NCBI GenBank assembly: GCA_024451685.1
Contig: JAMXCW010000015.1
Span: 1 to 55,986, forward strand
DNA: 55,986 nt
Origin: Candidatus Bathyanammoxibius amoris
GTDB lineage: Bacteria > Planctomycetota > Brocadiia > Brocadiales > Bathyanammoxibiaceae
Direction of reading: 5' to 3'
Shown here one piece after another: positions 28,324 through 40,372 of the stretch. The notes beneath the pieces are model-generated. The model was not told the origin of the DNA. It searched no databases and saw nothing but the letters and a program-made list of their open reading frames with translations. Numbering within the stretch: the stretch's first letter is position 1; each line of letters begins with the position of its first letter. The position numbers and the translations under genes were made by a program.

Positions 28324-28548
28324 TTATGTTATCTGTCCTAGATACAATATTTCATCCGGGTTGTCGCCCAGACTTATTACAATCCCCACGTTATTGCTGT
28401 CAAAACGGTTCCTCATTGCAGTGGAGAGCATCAGGCCGCGTGAACCCACGGTTCCACTGATACCGTAGGCCAGCGTTACGTCTTTGCGTCGTTCCGCGTC
28501 CTGAGGCCTCTCTATTCCAATGCCCGTGAGTTGCTGGTGTCGTGTCAC
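28324..28548 (-). CDS. Small hypothetical phage protein
   Basis: The 74-residue protein overlaps the hub-like gene stop by four bases, so translation is coupled. The C-terminal half (NNVGIVISLGDNPDEILYLG) is beta-rich. No recognised family; likely a tail accessory protein. Confidence 0.5.
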   Translation of the reverse strand: MTRHQQLTGIGIERPQDAERRKDVTLAYGISGTVGSRGLMLSTAMRNRFDSNNVGIVISLGDNPDEILYLGQIT

Positions 28549-30524
28549 TGTAACCGCCCCCTTACTACAAGTGTGGTGACTGCCTTTCCGCTTGTTACGT
28601 CCTTCTGTATCTCGTACCCCACCACTACGGGCTTGAAATCCGGGTCGAGTGCAGGGATGGGAATCTGCTCCGAGCCGTCCAGGTTTGACATTGACTCCAT
28701 GTCTATTTGCAGGCCCACATGCACGTTAAGTTCCCCCATTACCTGATACGTCCTCAACACCTCGTCCTTGCCGTACCTCTTTTCCAGAAACGGCAATATG
28801 TTTTCCAGTGACTCCCAGCTTGGTGTGTTGATGGACAATTCCCTGGAGGGCGTATCCATGACCGCAGTCGCATCGGACGCGCTGCCCCTTGAGGCGGCTC
28901 CCCTTTCTGCGTAGGTCTGCATCTTACGCAACTGCACAGGCGAACCCTGGACCGCCCCGGCCTGGACTATCTGTGTCGCAACGTCCGTATCGTACCTGCC
29001 GTCGGGACCGAGGCTTGACAGTACCCTGCGCATGCCGTAAGAATCTTTGCTTATCTGGGTGTAGGAAATGGACTCTTCTCTGGTAATCTTCCTTCCAAGT
29101 ATACCCCAGGGCGAGATGTCGTCTTTAGCCATGGATTTAAGTTCTTTGTGGGTGACGCCATCATCGGTATAGACTACGGCTTCCGTGGTGGTGACTTGGG
29201 CTGCAAGCTCACCTTCACGGGTGTACCAGTAATCGGTGCGGGTTTCTTCCAAATTTTCAAAGAGGCCGAATACCACCTGTCCGTATTGCGGAAAGAAAAC
29301 CATCTGGTCCAGTGAAGTAATCCGGCCGGGAATGGCATAGAACCTGCGTCCTACAACGTTGCCGTACTCACGTGGTGCGGCAAAGCTCCAGTGTGTATTC
29401 TCATAGATGAAAGCCGCTTTCTCCCTGGAGAAAAGGACACGGTTCGGTCCCGATAGCGTATAACGATACTTATATGTGGAGCGTGTCTCACCTAGAGTAA
29501 AGGAGGCATTGCCGAATATGTCCTTACCCTTAAGTATCGAGACCTCCTCTTCGGAGTAGCCGTTTACAATGAATGTGTCGACGTCATACGTAAGACCATA
29601 AGGGTTTGGACCCCATATTGTGATGGCTTTTGAAGTCGCGTAAACGCGTTTTCCGGGTGTACTGACACTGTAAGGTGTACCTGTGGAATCGGCCTGTGTT
29701 AGGAAGTATTCCCTTTCGATACCATAGGCATAGTTCCCTATCCAGCGGTCTCCAATCCTGTCGAGTACCCACTGGTACGGTTCTGATGTAATCGGTCCCT
29801 TGAACCTCTCGGGCCTGAAGCGACCGACGTTGCCGCGCAGCCTTATCTGGGAGGGTTTCTCTTTCCTGATTACCTCCTCCCTGACCATCCGGACACCGCT
29901 TAGCTCCAGCACGTTTTCTGCGTCAAGGGCATACTCAGCGGCACCGCCTTCGGTGATGAAGACATGACCAGCTACACTATAGATAAAAGGCTCCATCGGG
30001 CTTACGAGTGTCTTGACCGCTGAGAGAATGGGAGTACCGGGTTCCACGGTAAACTGTTTTACCCAGTAGGCGGGCAGGCTGGAGTGCACGACGGTACCGG
30101 CCATCTGTCCCAGCGTCTCTATAATCTGATTGGAATTCCAGCCACGTTCACCGAACTCGTCACCGATAAGTATCCAGGGACGATATTCTATCTGTGCCTC
30201 ACTCCCAGCATAATCCTTTCGAAAGTCGTCATACTGCGTTTGAGAGAGGGTGAAGAATATCTGCTTCTTCTTGGGTGATTTCCTGCCCTCAAGCTGCATG
30301 GGTGAGAGCAGGCTGAGGCTCTGAGACCAGCCGTCAGTGCCCAGTTCTTTGCTTATCCCTTCGACCACGAATTCCCGTTGCTCTCCCGCTACGTCGAACT
30401 GTATGGTGTCGCCGGGCTGATAACCCCCTGAAAAACTGTCCAGTTCCACTGTAGCCGTCTCTGAGAGTGCATCAAGCCCGTGGCTTACTTTAATCTTTTG
30501 CAGGTTTTCAGTGATGCTTACCAT
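28545..30524 (-). CDS. Large tail protein, probable hub/baseplate component
   Basis: This 659-residue protein is the longest product of the phage element. The first 100 residues (VSHGLDALSETATVELDSFS, YQPGDTIQFDV) look like the beta-barrel start of tail hub proteins. The remainder is beta-rich with many aromatic residues and ends in a compact domain (PVVVGYEIQKDVTSGKAVTT). It directly follows the tail-tube gene with a four-base gap. The place where a tape-measure gene normally lies is empty. It has no long coiled coil or hydrophobic stretches, so it is not itself a tape measure. The hub assignment is by position and N-terminal style. Confidence 0.6.
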   Translation of the reverse strand: MVSITENLQKIKVSHGLDALSETATVELDSFSGGYQPGDTIQFDVAGEQREFVVEGISKELGTDGWSQSLSLLSPMQLEGRKSPKKKQIFFTLSQTQYDDFRKDYAGSEAQIEYRPWILIGDEFGERGWNSNQIIETLGQMAGTVVHSSLPAYWVKQFTVEPGTPILSAVKTLVSPMEPFIYSVAGHVFITEGGAAEYALDAENVLELSGVRMVREEVIRKEKPSQIRLRGNVGRFRPERFKGPITSEPYQWVLDRIGDRWIGNYAYGIEREYFLTQADSTGTPYSVSTPGKRVYATSKAITIWGPNPYGLTYDVDTFIVNGYSEEEVSILKGKDIFGNASFTLGETRSTYKYRYTLSGPNRVLFSREKAAFIYENTHWSFAAPREYGNVVGRRFYAIPGRITSLDQMVFFPQYGQVVFGLFENLEETRTDYWYTREGELAAQVTTTEAVVYTDDGVTHKELKSMAKDDISPWGILGRKITREESISYTQISKDSYGMRRVLSSLGPDGRYDTDVATQIVQAGAVQGSPVQLRKMQTYAERGAASRGSASDATAVMDTPSRELSINTPSWESLENILPFLEKRYGKDEVLRTYQVMGELNVHVGLQIDMESMSNLDGSEQIPIPALDPDFKPVVVGYEIQKDVTSGKAVTTLVVRGRLQ

Positions 30525-30528
30525 GATT

Positions 30529-31476
30529 TCAAATTGCCGGCTGATTGTTGATTAAGGTTATCTTTATGTCCGTCGCCTCGGTAGTGTCCTTCAAGGCTGC
30601 GAAGTGGAGTCCACTCACGAGAGGACCCGAGTTTTTGACCTCAGGCACGGGGGCGCTGACGTTAAAAACTATCCTGGGCAATAAAATCTCCATAGAGAAA
30701 CTACCCTGCACCGCGGTAATCTTCAGGGAAGAGGTGCTGAGGTCATTGAACCTGTTGTAATAACTGAAATCCTCAAACTCCAGCGTCAAAGTGCCTGATA
30801 CGTACCTGAGACCTTCGCTGATGGAGTATCTCTCCCTCTGGCCCAGAACAAAACCGTTCCTGTCAAGCTGGTTTGCGATGACAAGCTTGGCGTTAAGTAC
30901 GTTGTTCAGTACGCCGGCACCGTCCTGTATGCTGACCTGATATGAAATGGGCGCACCCTCGCCTTCTAACAGGGAGGAAGCAACCGAGCCGGTAGCCGTG
31001 TCTGCGGTCTTTGAGAGTATATCAAGCAGGCCCGTAACCGGGCCACCGTCACCGGGGAAATTGAGTAGCAGTGTGTCTATCCTGCACCCTTTAAACAACA
31101 GGAAACTCCCGACGTCGTTAAAACCCTTTTCTATGGAGAGGCCGGGAGGGAGACTGCTGCCACCCGTGATGACGTGTGTATAGGGTGCGCCACCACCGCT
31201 GGTACTGGCGTTTCCGAGGCTGTGCTTGAGAAGTGTGCCAATGGAATCAAGCTCTATGTCAAGTGCAACCTTGCCGCCTGTGTCGATGTGGCCAGACCCG
31301 GCACCCGTAGACATCCTCTCCGAACCGTCTTTAACCTGCATAAAGGCGCTGCCCCTGACACCAAGCCCCTCGGCGGTAAAGGGTATCAGCCTCATCTGGG
31401 GGCTTGGAGGGGTTACCCCGAATGTGGTTTCTTCTACATAGGAAAGCCTGGTACTATTTCCTCTGGACTGTGGCAT
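30529..31476 (-). CDS. Major tail tube protein (Phage_tube-like)
   Basis: The 315-residue protein opens with NSTRLSYVEETTFGVTPP, the typical start of the phage tail tube family, followed by a beta-rich body and an Ig-like second half (LTLEFEDFSYYNRFNDLS). It lies between the neck gene and the hub-like gene, as expected for a siphovirus tail tube. The ribosome site is weak. Confidence 0.78.
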   Translation of the reverse strand: MPQSRGNSTRLSYVEETTFGVTPPSPQMRLIPFTAEGLGVRGSAFMQVKDGSERMSTGAGSGHIDTGGKVALDIELDSIGTLLKHSLGNASTSGGGAPYTHVITGGSSLPPGLSIEKGFNDVGSFLLFKGCRIDTLLLNFPGDGGPVTGLLDILSKTADTATGSVASSLLEGEGAPISYQVSIQDGAGVLNNVLNAKLVIANQLDRNGFVLGQRERYSISEGLRYVSGTLTLEFEDFSYYNRFNDLSTSSLKITAVQGSFSMEILLPRIVFNVSAPVPEVKNSGPLVSGLHFAALKDTTEATDIKITLINNQPAI

Positions 31477-31486
31477 CGGTGTCTAC

Positions 31487-31960
31487 TTAATACGCCCCTA
31501 CGGATGGTCTTTCCAGGGCCGTGAGTACGACCCTTGCAGTCTTTACAAATGCGTCTGCACGTGCGGATTCTTCGGGATACTCATGGCTAAGTATCGCCGA
31601 ATCTATTACATTGCCGCTCAGGGTGGGGTCGGTGCTCACCAGTCTCTCCACCGCCTCCACATAGCGCCATAGCTTCTTTTGCAGGATGTCTGTATCGACA
31701 CTTACCGTTCTGTCGGTAATCTCCACTGAGATCCTGTGTTTCAATTCCCGCCTGCTGGAGAGGATATTACCTGTCGATGTTTCCAGGCCGACCACCGTTA
31801 TGTTTGGATACGACGGGTCCTGGTGCTCTCTTTCAACGAAGTATCCCTGTATGTCATCGAGGGTAATTCCGTCGTTCCTTTCGGTATCGATGGTGTCTAG
31901 CTTTCCCGGCATATTAGTTTGTAAAAAGGTCTTCACCTGGTCTACGACGTCTTCAATCAT
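31487..31960 (-). CDS. Neck / tail-terminator-type phage protein
   Basis: The protein is about 157 residues from MIEDVVDQVKTFLQTNM, chosen over an upstream ATG because GGAGG lies ten bases before it. The alpha/beta composition (ISVEITDRTVSVDTDILQKK) and the position between connector and tail tube match tail-completion or tail-terminator proteins. The 233 bases upstream (31961-32193) hold no gene I can support. Confidence 0.6.
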   Translation of the reverse strand: MIEDVVDQVKTFLQTNMPGKLDTIDTERNDGITLDDIQGYFVEREHQDPSYPNITVVGLETSTGNILSSRRELKHRISVEITDRTVSVDTDILQKKLWRYVEAVERLVSTDPTLSGNVIDSAILSHEYPEESARADAFVKTARVVLTALERPSVGAY

Positions 31961-32193
31961 TTGCAAGAAACCTCCATATTCCCGTGCCACATGATTAACG
32001 GCAGTGCGCAATAGTCATTACGCAAAAAACGCAAAAACTTGTTCGGACGGAGGCAAACCCCGTCGCTTCGTCACTCGTGCGGGTACCGTCTACCTTAGAC
32101 CTAAAATCCGCTATATTGGGGGCGGCCGGGTGGATGTCCGCACGGACTCTATAAGCAAATGTCTAGGAAATCCCTGTTCACCCAACTGAACCA

Positions 32194-32715
32194 CTAGAAC
32201 CTGTATCTCTTATAGAGATCCAGGACTACCTTTATCTCATCGGGCAGATGCGATATGTACGAAACACCGGCTTTAGAACTTATACCCAGCCTGTTCCTGC
32301 CCCGGTCGTAATATTTCATGGCCACCAGCTCGATGGCAGCCTGGTCGAGGTCCTTCGGAATGCTGGCATAACCGGCTGTGTACTGAAGCCGCACGTTCTT
32401 CTTTCCTCTGGAAAATGTCCCGGAGTTTAGCTTCAAGAGTCCAAGCTGGCCGTAAAGTGTGTATGCCGATGCATCCTTCTCGATGCTATCGACCTCCAGC
32501 AAGGTGACAGTGGAGATTGGATACTGATTGGTCAATATCCCCTCTGTCCCATCACCGTCGTAGTACTCGTCGTAGGTGCCCTCTGTAAAGGTGCGCCCAC
32601 AGTAGGAGTGGATCAGGTCAGTGGCCCAATCCACCAGCCTGCTTATGAGCGCATCGTCAGAGCTGCCCGCGACGCCAAGGTAATCCTTCACGTTTGTCAC
32701 CGTAGTAAGAGACAT
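32194..32715 (-). CDS. Head-tail connector (HK97 gp6-like)
   Basis: The 173-residue protein has an N terminus (TVTNVKDYLGV, then DDALISRLVDWATDLIHSYCGR) that is the classic helical start of gp6-type connector proteins. It is followed by a beta section and a helical end (AAIELVAMKYYDRGRNRLG). Located just after the capsid gene, it would form the ring joining portal and tail. Confidence 0.8.
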   Translation of the reverse strand: MSLTTVTNVKDYLGVAGSSDDALISRLVDWATDLIHSYCGRTFTEGTYDEYYDGDGTEGILTNQYPISTVTLLEVDSIEKDASAYTLYGQLGLLKLNSGTFSRGKKNVRLQYTAGYASIPKDLDQAAIELVAMKYYDRGRNRLGISSKAGVSYISHLPDEIKVVLDLYKRYRF

Positions 32716-32729
32716 TGTCTTTTACCTGT

Positions 32730-32849
32730 CTATGTCCTGGCGGTACTGGTTTTCTTGCCCGTGGCGTGTCTGGACGTATTCCGGCATGCCGCCTTCCGGG
32801 TGGTCTTCTTTAAATGGACCATCTTGTCTTTGTAGTCCTTGATAGTCAT
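32730..32849 (-). CDS. Very small basic protein (39 aa)
   Basis: It begins MTIKDYKDKMVHLKK and is Lys/Arg/Thr-rich throughout, with a single cysteine. A GGAGGG ribosome site lies eight bases before the ATG. Its start overlaps by one base the stop of a 10-codon ORF (MPCYSVGGKM, 32849-32881) that also has an AGGAG site. It sits between capsid and connector genes. The ribosome sites make it likely to be translated; its basic nature suggests nucleic-acid contact (inference). The rest of 32850-33048 has no gene. Confidence 0.5.
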   Translation of the reverse strand: MTIKDYKDKMVHLKKTTRKAACRNTSRHATGKKTSTART

Positions 32850-33048
32850 CACATTTTCCCTCCAACTGAATAGCAGGGCATTTTTACACTCCTGCCCTTA
32901 AAAACCCTTAATTTCTGGTGAGGCCGAGTGGTGCCGGCAGTCACGTCTGAGGAGGGCAACTCTGCACCAGAGGTAAAACACCTCTCTTGCAGGGGGGAAA
33001 CAACAACGTTCCGTGACCCCGGCACTCTGGGCCCTTGCGGCCGCTGTA

Positions 33049-34209
33049 CTACGGCCTTACGCCTGTGACCTTGCAGAAGACCTCGGGGGTCCTCAGGATG
33101 AAGTCCAGCCTGGATATGGTCCTTATCCACGACTGATAGTACTCAAAGGCCGTGCCCGACTGGTCTACGGCGAACTCCATGCCCAGCCGCTCGCCTATAA
33201 TGGCCTCGTCGAACTGGCCGCAGAGTATGTAGGAACAGTCACTTGAACTGCCGACAGTCAGGTTTGTCGGTATCTGGGTGGTGAGATGCACCGGTATACC
33301 CATCAGGCTGTCCGGCTCCTTCAGGCTGGGCGAGACGTTGTAGATGTACTGCCCGTTAGAGTCCTTTATTTTCCTCAGGGTGTTTTTGGTCCTGGGATGC
33401 ATCAACCATGCGGATGCGGCGCCGTTGTTGAGTTCTACCTTGTAGAGCGCATCGTATATATCGTCAAAATCCGGCGTTCCACCGTTTGCGCCCAGAGTTA
33501 CCTCGTTCACGTTGCTGGTGTTCATGATGCCCAGTGGTTGATTGGATGTCCCATCGCCCGCGATGAAGGCGATATCCTCGGCAAGGGCCAGCACTTTGGC
33601 AATGTCCCTGCGTACGGCCGCCTCTGCGGCGCCGGAGGAGTCCTGCAGCAACTGGTTTGACACCTTAACCATCGCCGCCAGTACCTTTGCCACCAATTGC
33701 GACTGCGCGACGGTCTGGTCACTGGACGTTATCTGCGCATTCTCACCTATCCAGTATGCCATGGCGCCACCGGAAATCTTTGGTATGTTGAGGGTGTCGG
33801 TAGCCATCGGATAAACGGTAGCGCCCGCCCTCCTGATAACCGCCTGGGCCGTTATGCGGTCCTTAACCTCACTGACGTGCTCTTCCGGTACAAGAAAGCC
33901 GCCTGCCGAACCGGTCCCTTCGCCCAGTGCCTTCCTCTCATAGCGCGCCCCCGTCCAGTCCTTTGTTGACATTGCCTTGAAGAGGCGGCCAAAGCTGAAC
34001 CTGCTCGGTTCACCACTCCCTGCCCACTTCGAGGGGAATTCCAGCTTCCTTGGGCTCCTGACCATTTTATGTACGGCGTCATTCAGCCTGTTCTTCACCA
34101 TACCCTCTATCCTGTCGGCCAGGGACTCCTTGTGTTTTTCAAGTTCGCCGGGCATGCCCTTCAGCATCTTCTCAAGGACATTTACCCTCTGTGTGACTTC
34201 CTTATTCAT
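33049..34209 (-). CDS. HK97-fold major capsid protein
   Basis: In this 386-residue protein, the first 100 residues are a charged helical delta/scaffold region (VNVLEKMLKGMPGELEKHKE) expected to be removed by the prohead protease. The mature fold then follows the HK97 pattern: GTGSAGGFLVPEEH, AQAVIRRAGATVYPM, FIAGDGTSNQPLGIMN, WLMHPRTKNTLRKIKD, PDSLMGIPVHLTTQIP. AAGGAGG precedes the ATG. It is the shell protein of the element's capsid. Confidence 0.94.
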   Translation of the reverse strand: MNKEVTQRVNVLEKMLKGMPGELEKHKESLADRIEGMVKNRLNDAVHKMVRSPRKLEFPSKWAGSGEPSRFSFGRLFKAMSTKDWTGARYERKALGEGTGSAGGFLVPEEHVSEVKDRITAQAVIRRAGATVYPMATDTLNIPKISGGAMAYWIGENAQITSSDQTVAQSQLVAKVLAAMVKVSNQLLQDSSGAAEAAVRRDIAKVLALAEDIAFIAGDGTSNQPLGIMNTSNVNEVTLGANGGTPDFDDIYDALYKVELNNGAASAWLMHPRTKNTLRKIKDSNGQYIYNVSPSLKEPDSLMGIPVHLTTQIPTNLTVGSSSDCSYILCGQFDEAIIGERLGMEFAVDQSGTAFEYYQSWIRTISRLDFILRTPEVFCKVTGVRP

Positions 34210-34290
34210 CCAAATTCCTCCTTTGCGGTAATTACGTTCGGTTACAATTGCAGATTCTGCACTAATGCGGCCAAAGGGTACGACTGCTCC

Positions 34291-34962
34291 TTATCTGGAG
34301 CCGGACGAGCATACGCTGGACCCAATGGATTTCTCTATAATACTGACTACTTCGTATGAAGAGATCAGGGGTCTCGCCGTGAGATCCTCAACCTCCTTCA
34401 GCATGGAATCAAGTTTGTCTACCAGCGCCTGGTCGGATGCCGTCCGGTCGACATTATTTCTGAGCGACTTCATCTCCCTCTGGCTGATGAGACCGCTCCT
34501 CCTGGCCTCCGCAAGGGCCTTCGGATTTGTCGGGATGGGCACTGCAGATATCTCAACCAGCTCCTGTTGCTTGAAACGCCGTCCCCTCGTTGCGCCGGCG
34601 ATTTCCTCCCAGTCCTTGGGTATAAACCCCACCGAGAAGCTTCTAAGAAAGCCGCCGCGATAGAGCTTATAAATGGTATCCGCAAACGGGTACTCGGCGC
34701 GGGTGGCAAACTGGAGCCTGAACATCAGCTGTCCGTTGCCGATGCGGGTCTCAAGGACCTTAGCGATGGGCGGGCTGTCGTATTTGTGGGCAAAAAGCAC
34801 CACCGGGTTCTTTCTGAAATTTTCCAGTTCCCAGCCGGTGGTACTCATTACGTCGCCGTCGCGGTCGGCCTCCTCCGTAGAGGCCACGGCCCAGAAACTC
34901 CTTGAGGCGTCGTCCTCTTCCTTTAACACGACCCCATACGTCTTGTAGATAGTGGTTGGCAT
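34291..34962 (-). CDS. Prohead protease (peptidase S78, HK97 family)
   Basis: The protein is about 223 residues from MPTTIYKTYGVVLKEED, chosen because GGGAGAG precedes this ATG; upstream in-frame ATGs at 34980 and 34995 are alternatives. The family's His (VVLFAHKYDSPPIA) and Ser (GGFLRSFSVGF) are present, together with ASTEEADRDGDVM near the N terminus. It would cleave the capsid delta domain during maturation. A conserved terminator element ends about 40 bases upstream. Confidence 0.9.
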   Translation of the reverse strand: MPTTIYKTYGVVLKEEDDASRSFWAVASTEEADRDGDVMSTTGWELENFRKNPVVLFAHKYDSPPIAKVLETRIGNGQLMFRLQFATRAEYPFADTIYKLYRGGFLRSFSVGFIPKDWEEIAGATRGRRFKQQELVEISAVPIPTNPKALAEARRSGLISQREMKSLRNNVDRTASDQALVDKLDSMLKEVEDLTARPLISSYEVVSIIEKSIGSSVCSSGSR

Positions 34963-35003
34963 GTCTCTCCCTTTTCTCATCTCTCGCTTTAACAACCGGA
35001 AAC

Positions 35004-35082
35004 AAAAAAGGCCCGGGAGAGTTTTTTTTGCTCAAAACTCCCCCGGGCCTCATGGTTTCTTAAAAAGAACCTTCGGTTACCG
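35004..35082 (-). terminator. Conserved motif plus intrinsic terminator, copy 3
   Basis: Read leftward: CGGTAACCGAAG (35082-35071), an imperfect GGTTCTT/AAGAAACC hairpin, then a very strong GGCCCGGG-type stem (35049-35034 with 35025-35010) and six T followed by GTTT. It separates the 63-residue ORF from the prohead protease, inside a head operon that must be read through. Confidence 0.82.
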
Positions 35083-35135
35083 GATTTTTTATTTCGTGCG
35101 GCGTCCGTTCATCACTCCGGACGTGTTCCTAGTAT

Positions 35136-35327
35136 CTAATGGTCTATCTTCTCCTGCTCCTCAATAGACGTTTTTATGTTTCTTATGATGCCGTCTACCA
35201 GCACCAGTTCCAAATTGACCGTGCCGTAAAAACCCTCGCGCATCACGCCGTCAATCACCCGGCCGGCCTTTACGCGGAACCGGTCAACCGCCTTTTTATT
35301 AATTGGTTTTTCCTTCGTAACCATCAT
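35136..35327 (-). CDS. Small basic phage protein (63 aa), leaderless
   Basis: Begins MMVTKEKPINKKAVDRFRVK, with a beta-rich middle (VINGV-like segment FYGTVNLELVLVDGIIRNI) and an acidic end. It has no ribosome site: the ATG lies six bases after the -10 of promoter A, so the mRNA would be leaderless. It is followed by terminator copy 3, making a short self-contained transcription unit. Promoter-proximal and basic, it could be a regulator; that is inference. Confidence 0.6.
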   Translation of the reverse strand: MMVTKEKPINKKAVDRFRVKAGRVIDGVMREGFYGTVNLELVLVDGIIRNIKTSIEEQEKIDH

Positions 35328-35333
35328 AACTTG

Positions 35334-35384
35334 AATTTACCACACTTTGTAAACTTGTCAATGGCAGGAATCAACAGTAATCAA
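35334..35384 (-). promoter_or_regulatory. Phage promoter A with phased TTGA repeats
   Basis: Read leftward: TTGA (35384-35381), six bases, TTGA (35374-35371), nine bases, -35 TTGACA (35361-35356), 16 bases, -10 TAAATT (35339-35334). Spacing is identical to promoters B and C. TGTGG directly precedes the -10 in all three. Confidence 0.8.
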
Positions 35385-35393
35385 CACAGGCAC

Positions 35394-35417
35394 AAGGCTA
35401 ATCTAGCTTTTAGCCTT
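35394..35417 (-). terminator. Hairpin at end of AT-rich cassette
   Basis: A perfect 8-base stem (AAGGCTAA/TTAGCCTT) with an 8-base loop. It includes the stop codon of the retropepsin-like gene. No T-run follows, so it may be an RNA-stabilising or Rho-type end rather than a standard intrinsic terminator. Confidence 0.5.
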
Positions 35418-35805
35418 CCTCTATTTCAATAATGCCTTGTTTCCCTCTTAAAGTGACGGTCCAATTGTTTATCAAGTCTCTCCCTATGCACGCGTGCTCC
35501 GCATCTGTTACTATTACTCTGTGAACCTTCTTGTCAAACGGGGACACGGATACTTTTGCTGAGTAAACATCTTCGAATCTTATTGCGGTCGCTTCTTTAT
35601 AACCAGCCACGAGCATTTTATCTACCTTTACGAGTCCCAATTCTGTTACAATTTTTTGGGGAACTACACTGATAGACGCTCCTGAATCAACAATTGCAGG
35701 TAGTGTTCTTGATGAAGATTGTGTGCTATCAGGAATAGAAACAGTACAGTCAATCACTGGTGCAGACGGAAGAAAAGAGGGATTGTAAGGTATACTTAAG
35801 CTCAT
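35410..35805 (-). CDS. Retropepsin-like aspartic protease
   Basis: The 131-residue protein has the active-site motif AIVDSGASISVV (Asp-Ser-Gly), preceded by a beta hairpin region. A late IGRDLINNWTVTL matches the GRDLL-type second motif of bacterial retroviral-like aspartic proteases. Such enzymes work as homodimers, each chain giving one Asp. It is the last gene of the AT-rich cassette, three bases after the DUF5678-like gene stops. From memory, small retropepsin-like and DUF5678 genes are often adjacent in bacteria and archaea, with no established role. Confidence 0.8.
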   Translation of the reverse strand: MSLSIPYNPSFLPSAPVIDCTVSIPDSTQSSSRTLPAIVDSGASISVVPQKIVTELGLVKVDKMLVAGYKEATAIRFEDVYSAKVSVSPFDKKVHRVIVTDAEHACIGRDLINNWTVTLRGKQGIIEIEEG

Positions 35806-35808
35806 CTC

Positions 35809-36483
35809 TTACTTACGCAAGAACGGTGTGGGTATATGAGCAACTTCTGGTTCCCTGGTTACCTTTGGCATGTATATAGAACGGTAGCCATATTTTTTGT
35901 ATACTCTCTCCGCTAATCCAGAGAAATCTTCATCGAAATCAACAACCTCATTGTCTACAATAGCAATAAATTTATTCTTGTAATCTTTGACAAGTCTTTC
36001 TTTATTTGCGTTAAAGAACTTCACTGCCTCTTCAAATTCTTCACTGTCAGAACGTTCTACCACCTCTTCATGTTCACCGAAATCTTCTAATGTGTTCCAT
36101 GGGTCTGTTTCTATTGCCGGTTCACATGCTAGCACAAAATTGCCTCCAAAAGCAACCTTCCACTCCTTTTGCCTACGTAACCATTCATCAGTTTTCCCAG
36201 TAGATTGTGGTCCTAGTACATCAACCCAAGAGATTGTTATTTGTTCGTTTGTTGGTGTGTATTCGCCAGAAAATAAGTCAACAGAATCAATAACAATTTG
36301 GAAGCTTCCCAACACATCCGCAAGACTTTTCACAGTTCCAGTGTTCCATTGTAACGGTTCTGTTCGCAATATAGGATCTTGCCCTCTAGCTACCATTACG
36401 GCGTTATTTCTAGCGGAGTATATTGGGACTAGTGGCGCTGCTTGTCTTCTAATTTGAGTATCCGCAAGAGCCGGTAATGTCAT
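35809..36483 (-). CDS. DUF5678-like protein with N-terminal extension
   Basis: The 224-residue protein has a C-terminal 70 residues (VKDYKNKFIAIVDNEVVDFD, then KYGYRSIYMPKV) resembling the short DUF5678 domain that often accompanies aspartic proteases. The N-terminal 150 residues are unusual for that domain. They contain a mixed alpha/beta segment (LADVLGSFQIVIDSVDLFSG) and an acidic stretch (EEVVERSDSEEFEEAVKFF). AAGGGAT precedes the ATG, and there is a three-base gap to each neighbour. It could be a substrate or regulator of the adjacent protease (inference). Confidence 0.65.
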   Translation of the reverse strand: MTLPALADTQIRRQAAPLVPIYSARNNAVMVARGQDPILRTEPLQWNTGTVKSLADVLGSFQIVIDSVDLFSGEYTPTNEQITISWVDVLGPQSTGKTDEWLRRQKEWKVAFGGNFVLACEPAIETDPWNTLEDFGEHEEVVERSDSEEFEEAVKFFNANKERLVKDYKNKFIAIVDNEVVDFDEDFSGLAERVYKKYGYRSIYMPKVTREPEVAHIPTPFLRK

Positions 36484-36486
36484 CGT

Positions 36487-37131
36487 TTATCCCTTTTCTA
36501 ATAAAGTCTTTAATACACTTTTAGAGCGGCGTATTTTCTCATCAACTTCGGCAACTCTGCGCTTTACATGTTCAACGTTTCCAACATCGCAATGGTAGTT
36601 AAATCTGCCTATCACTTCCTTAACAACAACATTATTATCAATTATACTAGGAATTGGGTCAATAGTTAATTTTACTGCAAAATCGCCGTCCTTATAGCGA
36701 ATAATGCTCCCGGGGAAAACTGCACCTCTTACTAAATCATTGAATGCTTTTGTTTCGGATTCGGGAAGAAACTTTTGCTTTATTAGACCAGTCAGGTCTT
36801 CTTCTCCAGGCTTCTTGATGTTCCACGAAGAGTTTAATCCCACAGCATTATATGGCGTATGAGGCAGTTTATTAACATATTCAATCACAATCTGCTTTAG
36901 TGTTCCAAGATTACTTTCATTAACTACTTTTAGTCCTACCTCCAATTTGTTCTCATCCACGGTTAGCAAGAAATTTTGCGATTCAAATAGTGAGAAAAGA
37001 GGCGTATTAATAAAATTTGTAGCTTGTTCTGCAATAATGTTTTTGTCACGCAACCAATCTTTTGAAGCGATTGAAGGGTTGTAGTTCTGTGCCAAGACAA
37101 CAATATTAGCGCTATTTAATAGTACATTCAT
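36487..37131 (-). CDS. Unknown protein, first gene of AT-rich cassette
   Basis: The 214-residue soluble protein begins NVLLNSANIVVLAQNYNPSI, with an alpha/beta body (NFLLTVDENKLEVGLKVVNE) and a charged helical end. It is not recognised with confidence. The overall layout recalls TIGR04255-type or sensor-like proteins, but no diagnostic motif is visible. Codon use is AT-rich, unlike the flanking portal and protease genes, a mark of transfer. GAGGTG precedes the ATG, and a promoter lies just upstream. Confidence 0.6.
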   Translation of the reverse strand: MNVLLNSANIVVLAQNYNPSIASKDWLRDKNIIAEQATNFINTPLFSLFESQNFLLTVDENKLEVGLKVVNESNLGTLKQIVIEYVNKLPHTPYNAVGLNSSWNIKKPGEEDLTGLIKQKFLPESETKAFNDLVRGAVFPGSIIRYKDGDFAVKLTIDPIPSIIDNNVVVKEVIGRFNYHCDVGNVEHVKRRVAEVDEKIRRSKSVLKTLLEKG

Positions 37132-37158
37132 GTGGCACCTCGCATATTAAATGCAACC

Positions 37159-37187
37159 ATACTACATAAGTAATTGCATCAATTCAA
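37159..37187 (-). promoter_or_regulatory. Promoter of AT-rich cassette
   Basis: TTGAAT (37187-37182), 17 bases, TAGTAT (37164-37159), leading to the ATG at 37131. It lacks the TTGA repeats of the phage promoters, so the cassette appears independently expressed. The 223-base spacer to the portal gene is otherwise AT-rich and empty. Confidence 0.6.
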
Positions 37188-37354
37188 CTGGAATCCTCTA
37201 AGGCCTTTTAACAAAAATACTTAAATTAAGGAATGATTAAATAGTTTTATTATATTACTCTGCTTATGTAGCTTCAAAACTATTCCTGTGCAAAAAAAGG
37301 ACTATTCTGTTTGTTGGATTCGTGGCCGGATGAGCGTAGGTGACACGTTTTTTT

Positions 37355-38569
37355 CTATTTGGAATCATTTTCTCGACTCTGTGAATCTCCCCACTCCACG
37401 GGGGACATGTTCCATAGCTTCTTGCGGGCCTCGTTGACGGTCCAGACGTCGCTGCCCACAAGTTTAGTTGCTATGTCGCTCTTGTCAAGCTCGTTGTCCC
37501 TGAGCGCTTCAACGCCTGAGAGATCGAACTCTCCGAATATGCCCACGCCGAAGCGTGGCGCGAGGAACGTGTTCACACACTCCTCTATTTTTCTGAGGCG
37601 CGGGATGACGCCTTTTGTCCAAAAAATCCTGTCCTGTGTCTCAGAGTTGGCATAGTTCGCATGTTCCAGAATCCCGACCTCTATGGGCGGCACCTTGTAG
37701 ACGGCCAGTATCTCCTCGCGCGACAACCTACGCTGCTCGATAAACTCCATGTCCTTCTGCCCCAAGCTGATTGACTGCCACTGAAGACCCTTTTCGAGCA
37801 GGATCACGCGGTGCGAGCGTTCGGCGCCGGAGTATGCCTGGTCAAATTCGGCCCGTAGACGCCACATAGCGGCATCGTTTAGTTCAGCCTGTGTACTTAT
37901 CACCCCTGAGGGCCGCGCCCCCTGTTTGAAAAACTTTTGGTTGTACATAACGGCATAGAAGTCGGCCAGAAGTCCCTGCCGCACCGCCGCAAGCGGTGAC
38001 ATTCCCCACAATTCGTTGAGCGGGTTAAAGTACTTTAGGTGTATCATCTCGTCCCGGCCATAGCCCACACTCTTTTCGCCCACGCTGAAGAGATAACCGT
38101 CTACCAACTCTTCCTTGTTGGGTATGATGCGCATCCTGTCGGGCCTGAGGGGCCATATCTCACCCGGATGCCCGTCGCTGTTATTCTTCTCAAGCGCCCA
38201 GAAGCAGTTGCCCGTGAGCTCCATGTACACCATCGAGGCCTCCCAGAAATCGTAGCGTGTCATCCGCGGGTTAACGCCCCAGAACAGTTTTACAAGCGGG
38301 TGGGTCTGCGGAAGTCTCTCACGGCCCGACGACGTGTCTTTATAGAACACGAACGGCACGCTTGCCACTGTCTGCGCAATCGCCTTCACACAGGCGAAGA
38401 CCCAGACGCTTGAGTACTCCGCGTCGCCGTATATTTCCATATATTGTTTGGAACGCCAGTCAACGGGGGTTGCATAACCGTCGCCCCAGGGAGAAAGTGA
38501 CAGCGAGAGTGGCAACGACCGGTTTGATTTCCTCTGTATGAAGGACATGATTTTGTTCATTACACTCAT
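37355..38569 (-). CDS. HK97-type portal protein
   Basis: The 404-residue protein contains the family run YSSVWVFACVKAIAQTVASV, PFVFYK, HPLVKLFWGVNPRMT, WPLRPDRMRI, EMIHLKYFNPLNELWGMSP and ARPSGVIS. These make a complete HK97 portal. It forms the dodecameric ring for DNA packaging. The start ATGAGTGTAATGAAC overlaps the stop of a 19-codon leader ORF. In HK97-like phages the protease follows directly, whereas here an AT-rich cassette and a small ORF intervene. Confidence 0.93.
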   Translation of the reverse strand: MSVMNKIMSFIQRKSNRSLPLSLSLSPWGDGYATPVDWRSKQYMEIYGDAEYSSVWVFACVKAIAQTVASVPFVFYKDTSSGRERLPQTHPLVKLFWGVNPRMTRYDFWEASMVYMELTGNCFWALEKNNSDGHPGEIWPLRPDRMRIIPNKEELVDGYLFSVGEKSVGYGRDEMIHLKYFNPLNELWGMSPLAAVRQGLLADFYAVMYNQKFFKQGARPSGVISTQAELNDAAMWRLRAEFDQAYSGAERSHRVILLEKGLQWQSISLGQKDMEFIEQRRLSREEILAVYKVPPIEVGILEHANYANSETQDRIFWTKGVIPRLRKIEECVNTFLAPRFGVGIFGEFDLSGVEALRDNELDKSDIATKLVGSDVWTVNEARKKLWNMSPVEWGDSQSRENDSK

Positions 38570-38625
38570 TCTCTTGACCTCATGTTGTTGGGTGTAGACG
38601 GTATGGCATCCGCTTCGACATTCAT
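38566..38625 (-). CDS. Short leader ORF (19 aa) coupled to portal gene
   Basis: Encodes MNVEADAIPSTPNNMRSRE and ends in ATGA overlapping the portal start. Its ATG lies seven bases after the -10 of promoter B, so it would be leaderless or nearly so, while the portal ATG itself has no strong ribosome site. It may serve to load ribosomes for the portal (inference). Confidence 0.4.
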   Translation of the reverse strand: MNVEADAIPSTPNNMRSRE

Positions 38626-38632
38626 TATCCTG

Positions 38633-38683
38633 AATTTACCACAAGTCTGAAATTTGTAAATGGCAGGATTCAACACACCTCAA
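38633..38683 (-). promoter_or_regulatory. Phage promoter B with phased TTGA repeats
   Basis: Read leftward: TTGA (38683-38680), six bases, TTGA (38673-38670), nine bases, -35 TTTACA (38660-38655), 16 bases, -10 TAAATT (38638-38633). It lies just past the terminase stop and drives the portal unit. Confidence 0.8.
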
Positions 38684-38688
38684 CATGG

Positions 38689-40194
38689 TCAAATAAACCT
38701 TATCCTCGGTGTGGAGTGGTGGCGGAGCTGGCGGACGGCCATCTCCAGGGCGTCGGGGCCGTCGTCGTGGGAACCCCGGGGGAATTCTATCAGCTGCTCT
38801 ATAAGCAGCTTCAGGTCACGATTAAATAAAATAGTCCCGTTTTCTATCAGCGCAGATAGGCTCGCTATGCGGGCGGTCTTGTCGCTAAAATTCTTAACCC
38901 CGCGGATGGGGATAAATAATTTCTCGCGCCTGGAAATGTCTTCAAGCATGTCTTTGAGCACTACCTGAAAGACGTTGGTCTCCACGGCAAGACAGAGAAA
39001 ATGTGACTTTTTTTTACTGGCTTCCTCTCCGTCCGAATGCCCCGACCATCTCTGAAAATTCCTGACAGCGGCATCGGCGATGGCCGCGGGCCTGCGTCTT
39101 TTTATATCAGCCTCAAGCACGTATATCTTTCCGCCAACCTGACCCACCGTGACCATGGCGCTGTAGTCGCCCGAAGAGGAAGAGCCCAGTGCGGGGTCAA
39201 TCGCCGTCGCTATCAAGAGTTCCTGATTATATAAATCCTCAGGCTTGTAGTAGCTAATCCACTCCTCACGAATCAACTGTTCCTCCGGACTTATCGGGTT
39301 ATTCTGGTATTCGCACTCAAACGCGATGGATCCAATTCCTTCTTTACCACCATCACCTTGTTTTATTTTTTTCAACCTTTCGGCGTCATAGTAGCCGGAC
39401 CACAGCGCCGCACCATCCGTACCCAGCGCACGGTATCTTTTGCCCTGCCATTTCTTGAGAAGTTTTGAGAGGAGGCTGTCGTAATGGAGTATCGTGCCCA
39501 CAACGATTATGTCGCCTTCGGGTCCCGGCAGGTTCAGCACCGAACGGTTGAACCATGACTCAAGCTTCCGTCTCTGCTCGGCGCTCAGCACGCCCTCGTC
39601 GTCCTCGAGGTCGTCGCATATTACAAGGTCGGGTCGCGACTCAAAGCTCCTCATTCCGCGGAGGCTTGAGCCGACCCCTTTGGCAACCACCCTCACACCG
39701 TTGGAGCATAGAATATCGGTGGATGTCCACTTCTCTCTGCCCACCAGCTCTCCGAAGTCCATCCTGATAAGCCCGTTTTCCTTCAGCTCGCGTATTATCG
39801 CCCCCAGGAAACCCTCCGATATGGTGCTTGAGGATGAGATGATTACTATGAAACGTTTCCTTCCGGTGCAGATGGCCCACAGCGGATAGACGAGGCCCAT
39901 CAGTACGCTCTTGCCGTGTCCCCTGGGTGCCGCAACGGCCTCACGCTTGTTCTCAGTGCTGGAGGCCATGAGGTCATAAAGCTCGGCATGGAACGGCGCG
40001 GGAGAGGCCGTCAGATAGTGCCTGAGATACCGCCCGGCAAAGGCTGCGGGGCTGTCCCAGGCATCAAGCTCCGCAAGAAGCTCTTTGCACAGAAGTAATC
40101 TCTTCTCTAAGTGAGGTAACCTCCTGTATGAGGGCAGACCTGAGCGCCCGGCGTTCAACCTCCGCAAGTGCCGAGAAATACACGTCTCCAGCAT
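38689..40194 (-). CDS. Terminase large subunit
   Basis: The protein is about 501 residues from MLETCISRHLRR, with AAGGAA upstream. An ATPase Walker A (AAPRGHGKSVL, residues 88-98) and Walker B with the catalytic acid (LVICDDLEDDEGV) are followed by a motif III-like VVGTILHYDSL. The C-terminal RNase H-type nuclease has acidic residues in ATAIDPALG, DYSAMVTVG and DDGPDALE. It packages DNA by powering translocation and cutting concatemers. The N terminus overlaps the small subunit gene by 131 bases, more than usual, so a later non-ATG start is possible. Confidence 0.92.
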   Translation of the reverse strand: MLETCISRHLRRLNAGRSGLPSYRRLPHLEKRLLLCKELLAELDAWDSPAAFAGRYLRHYLTASPAPFHAELYDLMASSTENKREAVAAPRGHGKSVLMGLVYPLWAICTGRKRFIVIISSSSTISEGFLGAIIRELKENGLIRMDFGELVGREKWTSTDILCSNGVRVVAKGVGSSLRGMRSFESRPDLVICDDLEDDEGVLSAEQRRKLESWFNRSVLNLPGPEGDIIVVGTILHYDSLLSKLLKKWQGKRYRALGTDGAALWSGYYDAERLKKIKQGDGGKEGIGSIAFECEYQNNPISPEEQLIREEWISYYKPEDLYNQELLIATAIDPALGSSSSGDYSAMVTVGQVGGKIYVLEADIKRRRPAAIADAAVRNFQRWSGHSDGEEASKKKSHFLCLAVETNVFQVVLKDMLEDISRREKLFIPIRGVKNFSDKTARIASLSALIENGTILFNRDLKLLIEQLIEFPRGSHDDGPDALEMAVRQLRHHSTPRIRFI

Positions 40195-40372
40195 CGCTTT
40201 TCCTTTCCTCCCGGTACGCAATCAATAGCTTAAGGGCCTGCGGATCGCCTTCCCCGGCCTTACCGGCAATGGCCTTAAGACCCTGTTCTATCTCGAGGTC
40301 TATGTTCAGACCCGAAGCCGCACGTACCGGTATTCTCTTTTTTGTTCTCTTTTTCTGTTTGGATTTCGGCAT
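40064..40372 (-). CDS. Probable small terminase subunit
   Basis: The protein is about 102 residues from MPKSKQKKRTKKRIPVRAAS. A longer upstream frame lacks credible content. It has a basic N terminus for DNA contact, then helices (LEIEQGLKAIAGKAGEGDPQ) and a coiled coil (LIQEVTSLREEITSVQ), fitting small terminase architecture. It is the first full gene after promoter C and lies immediately upstream of the large subunit. Confidence 0.6.
   Translation of the reverse strand: MPKSKQKKRTKKRIPVRAASGLNIDLEIEQGLKAIAGKAGEGDPQALKLLIAYREERKSDAGDVYFSALAEVERRALRSALIQEVTSLREEITSVQRASCGA

Follow-up and report, generated by a model that had tools for sequence, protein, structure and literature searches.

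In the 55,986-nucleotide stretch of Candidatus Bathyanammoxibius amoris DNA analysed here (contig JAMXCW010000015.1, positions 1 to 55,986; hereafter the window), a foreign insertion of ~2.0 kb, at about 35386-37380, carries three co-directional minus-strand genes, A, B and C, beside a phage portal gene. We consider the chances evenly balanced that this cassette is a horizontally acquired, tripartite conflict module resembling toxin-antitoxin (TA) systems and lodged in a portal-adjacent defence/TA hotspot. The features concerned are:

35386..37380, no strand: the insertion, with the portal gene on one side and the 63-aa ORF/protease on the other, delimited by the homology break against G394 and by GC and GC3
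36487..37131, minus strand: gene A, 214 aa, of an uncharacterised family that heads A-B-C operons
35809..36483, minus strand: gene B, 224 aa, with a unique N-terminal region, a C-terminal DUF5678 domain and a flexible tail
35881..35994, minus strand: the DUF5678 domain of B (PF18929, 5.4e-7)
35410..35805, minus strand: gene C, 131 aa, a retropepsin-like aspartic protease
37132..37354, minus strand: the cassette leader, AT-rich (0.34)
35394..35417, no strand: a perfect 8-bp hairpin overlapping the stop codon of C, at the downstream edge of the insertion
35334..35361, minus strand: a 28-bp phage promoter-like element, TTGACA-16-TAAATT, in the segment where G394 homology resumes
35136..35327, minus strand: a conserved phage ORF of 63 aa, outside the cassette and also present at the G394 empty site
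35008..35051, minus strand: a strong terminator, past the 63-aa ORF and before the prohead protease
37355-38569: the HK97-type portal gene, flanking the cassette
34962-34291: the S78-type prohead protease gene, flanking the cassette

The GC content of the cassette is 0.393, while any stretch of equal length elsewhere in the window has at least 0.478, and its GC3 is 0.32-0.34 against 0.65-0.72 in four phage genes (portal, terminase, capsid and protease). G394, a genome of the same family whose portal is 86% identical, has the empty site, i.e., portal, 40 bp, the 63-aa ORF and protease; homology between the window and G394 ends at 37381 and picks up again at 35385. As portal, small ORF and protease are contiguous in G394, this empty site proves that the cassette is inserted DNA. 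The initial annotation had described three tightly spaced genes of lower GC than their neighbours, two of them DUF5678-like and retropepsin-like, which interrupt the portal-protease order in the form of a moron cassette; all of this was borne out, the moron-like character with strong support from the empty site, the GC3 shift and the hotspot described below, and the A-B and B-C gaps were 3 nt each, with both domains above their Pfam cut-offs. The cassette thus shows the layout looked for in type II toxin-antitoxin loci, namely small, closely spaced, co-directional genes in a mobile or variable locus.

The transcription signals proposed in the initial annotation fared less well. The scan returned no promoter at 37159-37187; 5' of A its best sigma-70-like match was TTGAAG-17-TATAAT at 37277-37249 in the leader, which also holds an inverted repeat (ATGCAA/TTGCAT) at 37151-37179. 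Promoter-like matches in the AT-rich cassette region numbered 13 versus 5.1 in shuffled sequences, an excess expected of AT-rich DNA. The hairpin said to close the cassette at 35394-35417 is real, but it is not a canonical terminator for the operon, since the terminator scan calls it on the plus strand only; a strong terminator lies at 35051-35008. The 28-bp promoter-like element recurs upstream of the portal, at 38633-38660 (two matches, 0 expected), so that one copy stands downstream of each hotspot slot, and from this repetition we conclude that the phage genes probably keep their own transcription start beyond the cassette.

The same head genes are found in most genomes of the family and in one further member of the order, with portals 66–86% identical, and the slots adjoining the portal differ in content in each relative. 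The slot of G394, located precisely between the terminase and portal genes, contains MNT and HepT along with a type III methylase and a ResIII subunit; in front of the portal, G182 and G138 carry NTPases that are NACHT-like by weak matches (2.2e-4 and 4.7e-3); G396 has a low-GC three-gene cassette directly after the portal, its last gene a HicA-like toxin, and the same trio occurs in G138 upstream of the protease (HicA 0.0011, below cut-off); and in G206 the portal is followed by an SDH-type protease and preceded by an HTH and ImmA/IrrE-like pair. Because the slots of relatives hold RM with MNT/HepT, NACHT-like, HicA or other genes, the two portal-adjacent slots, judged by gene content, behave as a defence/TA hotspot. 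P2 prophages likewise have a portal-adjacent hotspot of variable accessory defence genes (PMC9519451); unlike it, the present one belongs to a Planctomycetota element with HK97-type head genes, and its slots lie between terminase, portal and protease. The HicA cassette of G396 is bounded by 158-bp direct repeats (95.6%) of the portal 3' end (L128 4165-4322 and 5914-6071), and portal 3' fragments are present in G206 and G182 too (L127, L102), hinting that cassettes may arrive through recombination at the portal end.

Gene C matched Pfam RVP at 7.1e-7 (29.9 bits, cut-off 20.7) and has the active-site motif AIVDSGAS at D40 and a downstream hydrophobic-hydrophobic-Gly motif in the form CIGRDLIN; a profile of its relatives matched HTLV-1 protease (1.1e-6) and DDI1 (1.9e-6). 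It fell below the NCBIfam cut-off of TIGR03698 clan_AA_DTGF (22 bits against 57.35), and in PADLOC gave weak matches only, with E-values of 0.008 or worse, to the candidate systems PDC-M08B/M52B. As a query C found two loci among the genome contigs and no relatives in the plasmid records or viral contigs. A retropepsin elsewhere (L152 1382-1987) carries a C-terminal SEC-C-like motif (CPCGSGKKYKKCC). Retropepsins with the D-[ST]-G motif are known from bacteria, e.g., RimB (PMC11957791) and APRc (PMC4140852), and few roles are known for them; unlike these, C is paired with a DUF5678 protein, lies on an inserted cassette and has no RimK or RimA neighbour.

Gene B matched PF18929 at 29.8 bits (gathering score 23.2), a family for which our literature search found no described function. 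No homologs to its N-terminal region were detected. Structure prediction for the C-terminal 78 residues, using three sequences, gave a helix-helix-hairpin-helix arrangement (mean pLDDT 80) followed by a tail with pLDDT below 50 that is disordered yet conserved (VTREPE..IPTP); Foldseek found no significant fold match to this model in the PDB. PADLOC has no model for B, and B and DUF5678 queries found no relatives in plasmid records or viral contigs. A weak PDB profile match (7e-4) to a ribosome hibernation factor fell in poorly aligned N-terminal columns and was rejected.

A PF18929 search of 199 Planctomycetota genomes returned 20 loci. In 14 of them a retropepsin-like gene comes next, its start lying -10 to +4 nt relative to the end of the DUF5678 gene, and in two more (L017, L027) the domains are fused in one polypeptide, giving 16/20; of ten divergent retropepsins scanned, eight have Pfam support, in some cases at scores under the curated cut-off, while the calls at L023 and L032 are by motif only (D-T-G, L-G). 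An order-level search added 17 loci that had been left out of profile building, 14 of which show the same pairing (L136 fused). Thus DUF5678 directly precedes or is fused to a retropepsin at 30 of 37 Planctomycetota loci, an adjacency expected by chance in ~0.5% of cases if one assumes, by our own estimate, as many as 20 retropepsins per 4500 genes. On this evidence of gene order, DUF5678 is a dedicated partner of retropepsins in Planctomycetota. Most of the pairs lack A, and phage genes were not seen beside them. At some loci a DUF3467 protein (L012/L028) or a weak COMM-domain protein (L009/L018) precedes the pair, showing that the trio is variable in its first gene too, and at L021 1495-2103 (minus strand) and L031 831-1451 DUF5678 ends proteins resembling response-regulator receiver domains.

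Such a partnership might also reflect regulated processing, with DUF5678 as substrate or activator and the retropepsin cutting B, or just the tail of B, and so freeing a signal that A or other first genes read. The receiver-like regions joined to DUF5678 fit signalling, the first genes vary (A, DUF3467, weak COMM-like), the conserved flexible tail would be open to a protease, and bacterial retropepsins already known, such as RimB, are regulators (PMC11957791); however, conflict accords better with the position in a defence/TA hotspot and with HEPN/PIN proteins as alternative effectors, and we regard processing as rather unlikely. Less probable still is direct superinfection exclusion, in which the protease would cleave a protein of an incoming phage without TA logic, A and B serving as adaptors that choose the target: the phage location and the separate transcription unit suit it, but most DUF5678-retropepsin pairs are without A and were not seen beside phage genes.

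The proposed TA-like module draws further on gene A. The family shares the motifs N-P-S-I ... L-P-H-T-P-Y-x-A-x-G-x-N and has no relative among the profiles of Pfam, NCBIfam, PADLOC, PHROGs and the PDB, apart from isolated weak matches of single members to unrelated models; AlphaFold gave an unusable model for A alone (pLDDT 35). Comparison with SecB yielded an hhalign probability of 0.1% (24 A proteins against a SecB set of five rows, one out of frame, so small that distant homology may have gone unnoticed). We do not claim kinship with the gene that opens the HicA cassette (L117, L128), although its position is suggestive, as the E-value was 0.12. With A itself as the query we found no match in genome contigs, phage records or viral contigs; genes of the A family occur in 17 of 392 genomes of the phylum and in six of 62 of the order. 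Where contigs permit, the operon order is A, then B, then an effector. The third gene encodes a HEPN protein at L054 (2.3e-5), at L059, L060, L064 and L067, which BLAST ties to L054 (pair E-values among the HEPN third genes mostly 1e-26 to 2e-3), and, by motif, at L153 and L154; a PIN protein at L056 (9.4e-10); an MBL-fold protein at L062 (0.006) and, by motif, at L063, L155 and L156; and a protein we call 'QSCDL' (motif TQ[ST]CDL) at L057, L065 and L070, for which Pfam has no family in the two scanned (L057, L065). Second genes are HEAT-repeat proteins at L058, L066 and L068. The B proteins of A modules are mostly unrelated except within one effector class (L060-L064, 7.5e-16), and from this confinement it appears that B tends to change together with C, A remaining constant. 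At L155, at L156 and at L077, where it stands between the R and S genes of a type I system, the A module adjoins RM genes; at L064 it adjoins phage-like genes. The initial annotation would take it as a refutation if the three genes never occurred together elsewhere, which is half the case: the exact triple of A, DUF5678 and retropepsin was seen in this window only, but B with C recurs as described above and A recurs with other B-C pairs. Its suggestion of a defence, toxin-type or exclusion system is upheld at the level of context, i.e., by RM, HepT/MNT, NACHT-like and HicA genes in the slots of relatives and by the HEPN/PIN or RM loci with A modules.

The A homologs on plasmids of cyanobacteria mostly stand before genes for giant Ig/CARDB or cytotoxin-like proteins, not TA pairs, and some also have peptidase-domain ABC transporters beside them. 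This would suit A as an export chaperone, the cassette encoding a secreted effector or its processing protease; but the cassette adjoins neither a transporter nor a large secreted protein, B and C are small, and the A modules of Planctomycetota hold cytoplasmic-type HEPN/PIN effectors, leaving this explanation quite improbable. That C is an alternative head-maturation protease, as its place between portal and prohead protease might suggest, is barely credible and already contradicted, given the native S78/HK97-type prohead protease, the foreign GC3 and the absence of the cassette from the sister element of G394.

Under the TA-like reading, C would be the effector, a retropepsin acting as a predicted dimer and toxic once free, and the DUF5678 domain of B would be cognate to it, most likely inhibiting or gating the protease (or serving as an adaptor), with a flexible tail at the C-terminus that could lodge in or against the enzyme. 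A would act as a sensor or chaperone-like holder of B, constant while B and C are exchanged, so that a phage product or stress taking away A or B would release C, which would then cleave proteins of the host or the phage and so abort the infection. Other B domains may do for HEPN or PIN what DUF5678 would then do for retropepsins. Against this reading stand the fact that the exact triple was seen in the window only, the lack of detectable SecB similarity and of a usable model for A, the giant secreted proteins mostly beside A on cyanobacterial plasmids, the lack of a PDB fold match for DUF5678, and PADLOC, which has no model for A or B and gives weak matches only for C.

In TAC systems the capsid protein of a phage draws the chaperone away, whereupon degradation of the antitoxin sets the toxin free (PMC11618068). 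Like these (e.g., CmdTAC; PMC11618068, PMC9519451), the present modules have three genes, one constant and the others varying with the effector, in a mobile or hotspot setting; the cassette is not claimed as TAC, as A is not detectably SecB, and it differs also in its order of A, middle protein and effector, and in its predicted protease effector. With MNT-HepT, HEPN and VapBC-type TA systems it shares the HEPN or PIN third genes of A-family operons elsewhere and the MNT/HepT in the hotspot of relatives, whereas its own predicted effector is an aspartic protease and gene A is additional. Retropepsins, TA modules and phage hotspots are each already known, but the literature we searched seems to contain no description of the DUF5678 partnership or of an A-B-C family whose effectors can be exchanged, and in it we found no work linking a retropepsin to toxin-antitoxin. 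Somewhat short of an even chance, we tentatively propose a new modular class of tripartite conflict systems where A is constant, B has two parts and the effector can be exchanged (HEPN, PIN, MBL-fold, 'QSCDL', retropepsin), and in which DUF5678 would be a retropepsin antitoxin or inhibitor and an HIV-protease-like enzyme a bacterial toxin or abortive-infection effector. If true, this would add an HIV-type protease to the effectors of bacterial immunity. A fixed DUF5678 partner and a retropepsin in the place of HEPN/PIN offer a testable idea for many genes annotated as 'aspartyl protease', and two uncharacterised families, A and DUF5678, are given a genomic role.

The shared head genes, for portal, protease and capsid, lie at 28544-40221 in the window and at L101, L103, L114-L119, L127 and L128 in the relatives. 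In G206 the portal and the protease/capsid genes are ~22 kb apart and in opposite orientation, and in G138 they are on different contigs. This split arrangement, together with the presence of the head genes in most genomes of the family, suggests that the element is long resident or domesticated (GTA-like) and not a prophage of recent arrival.
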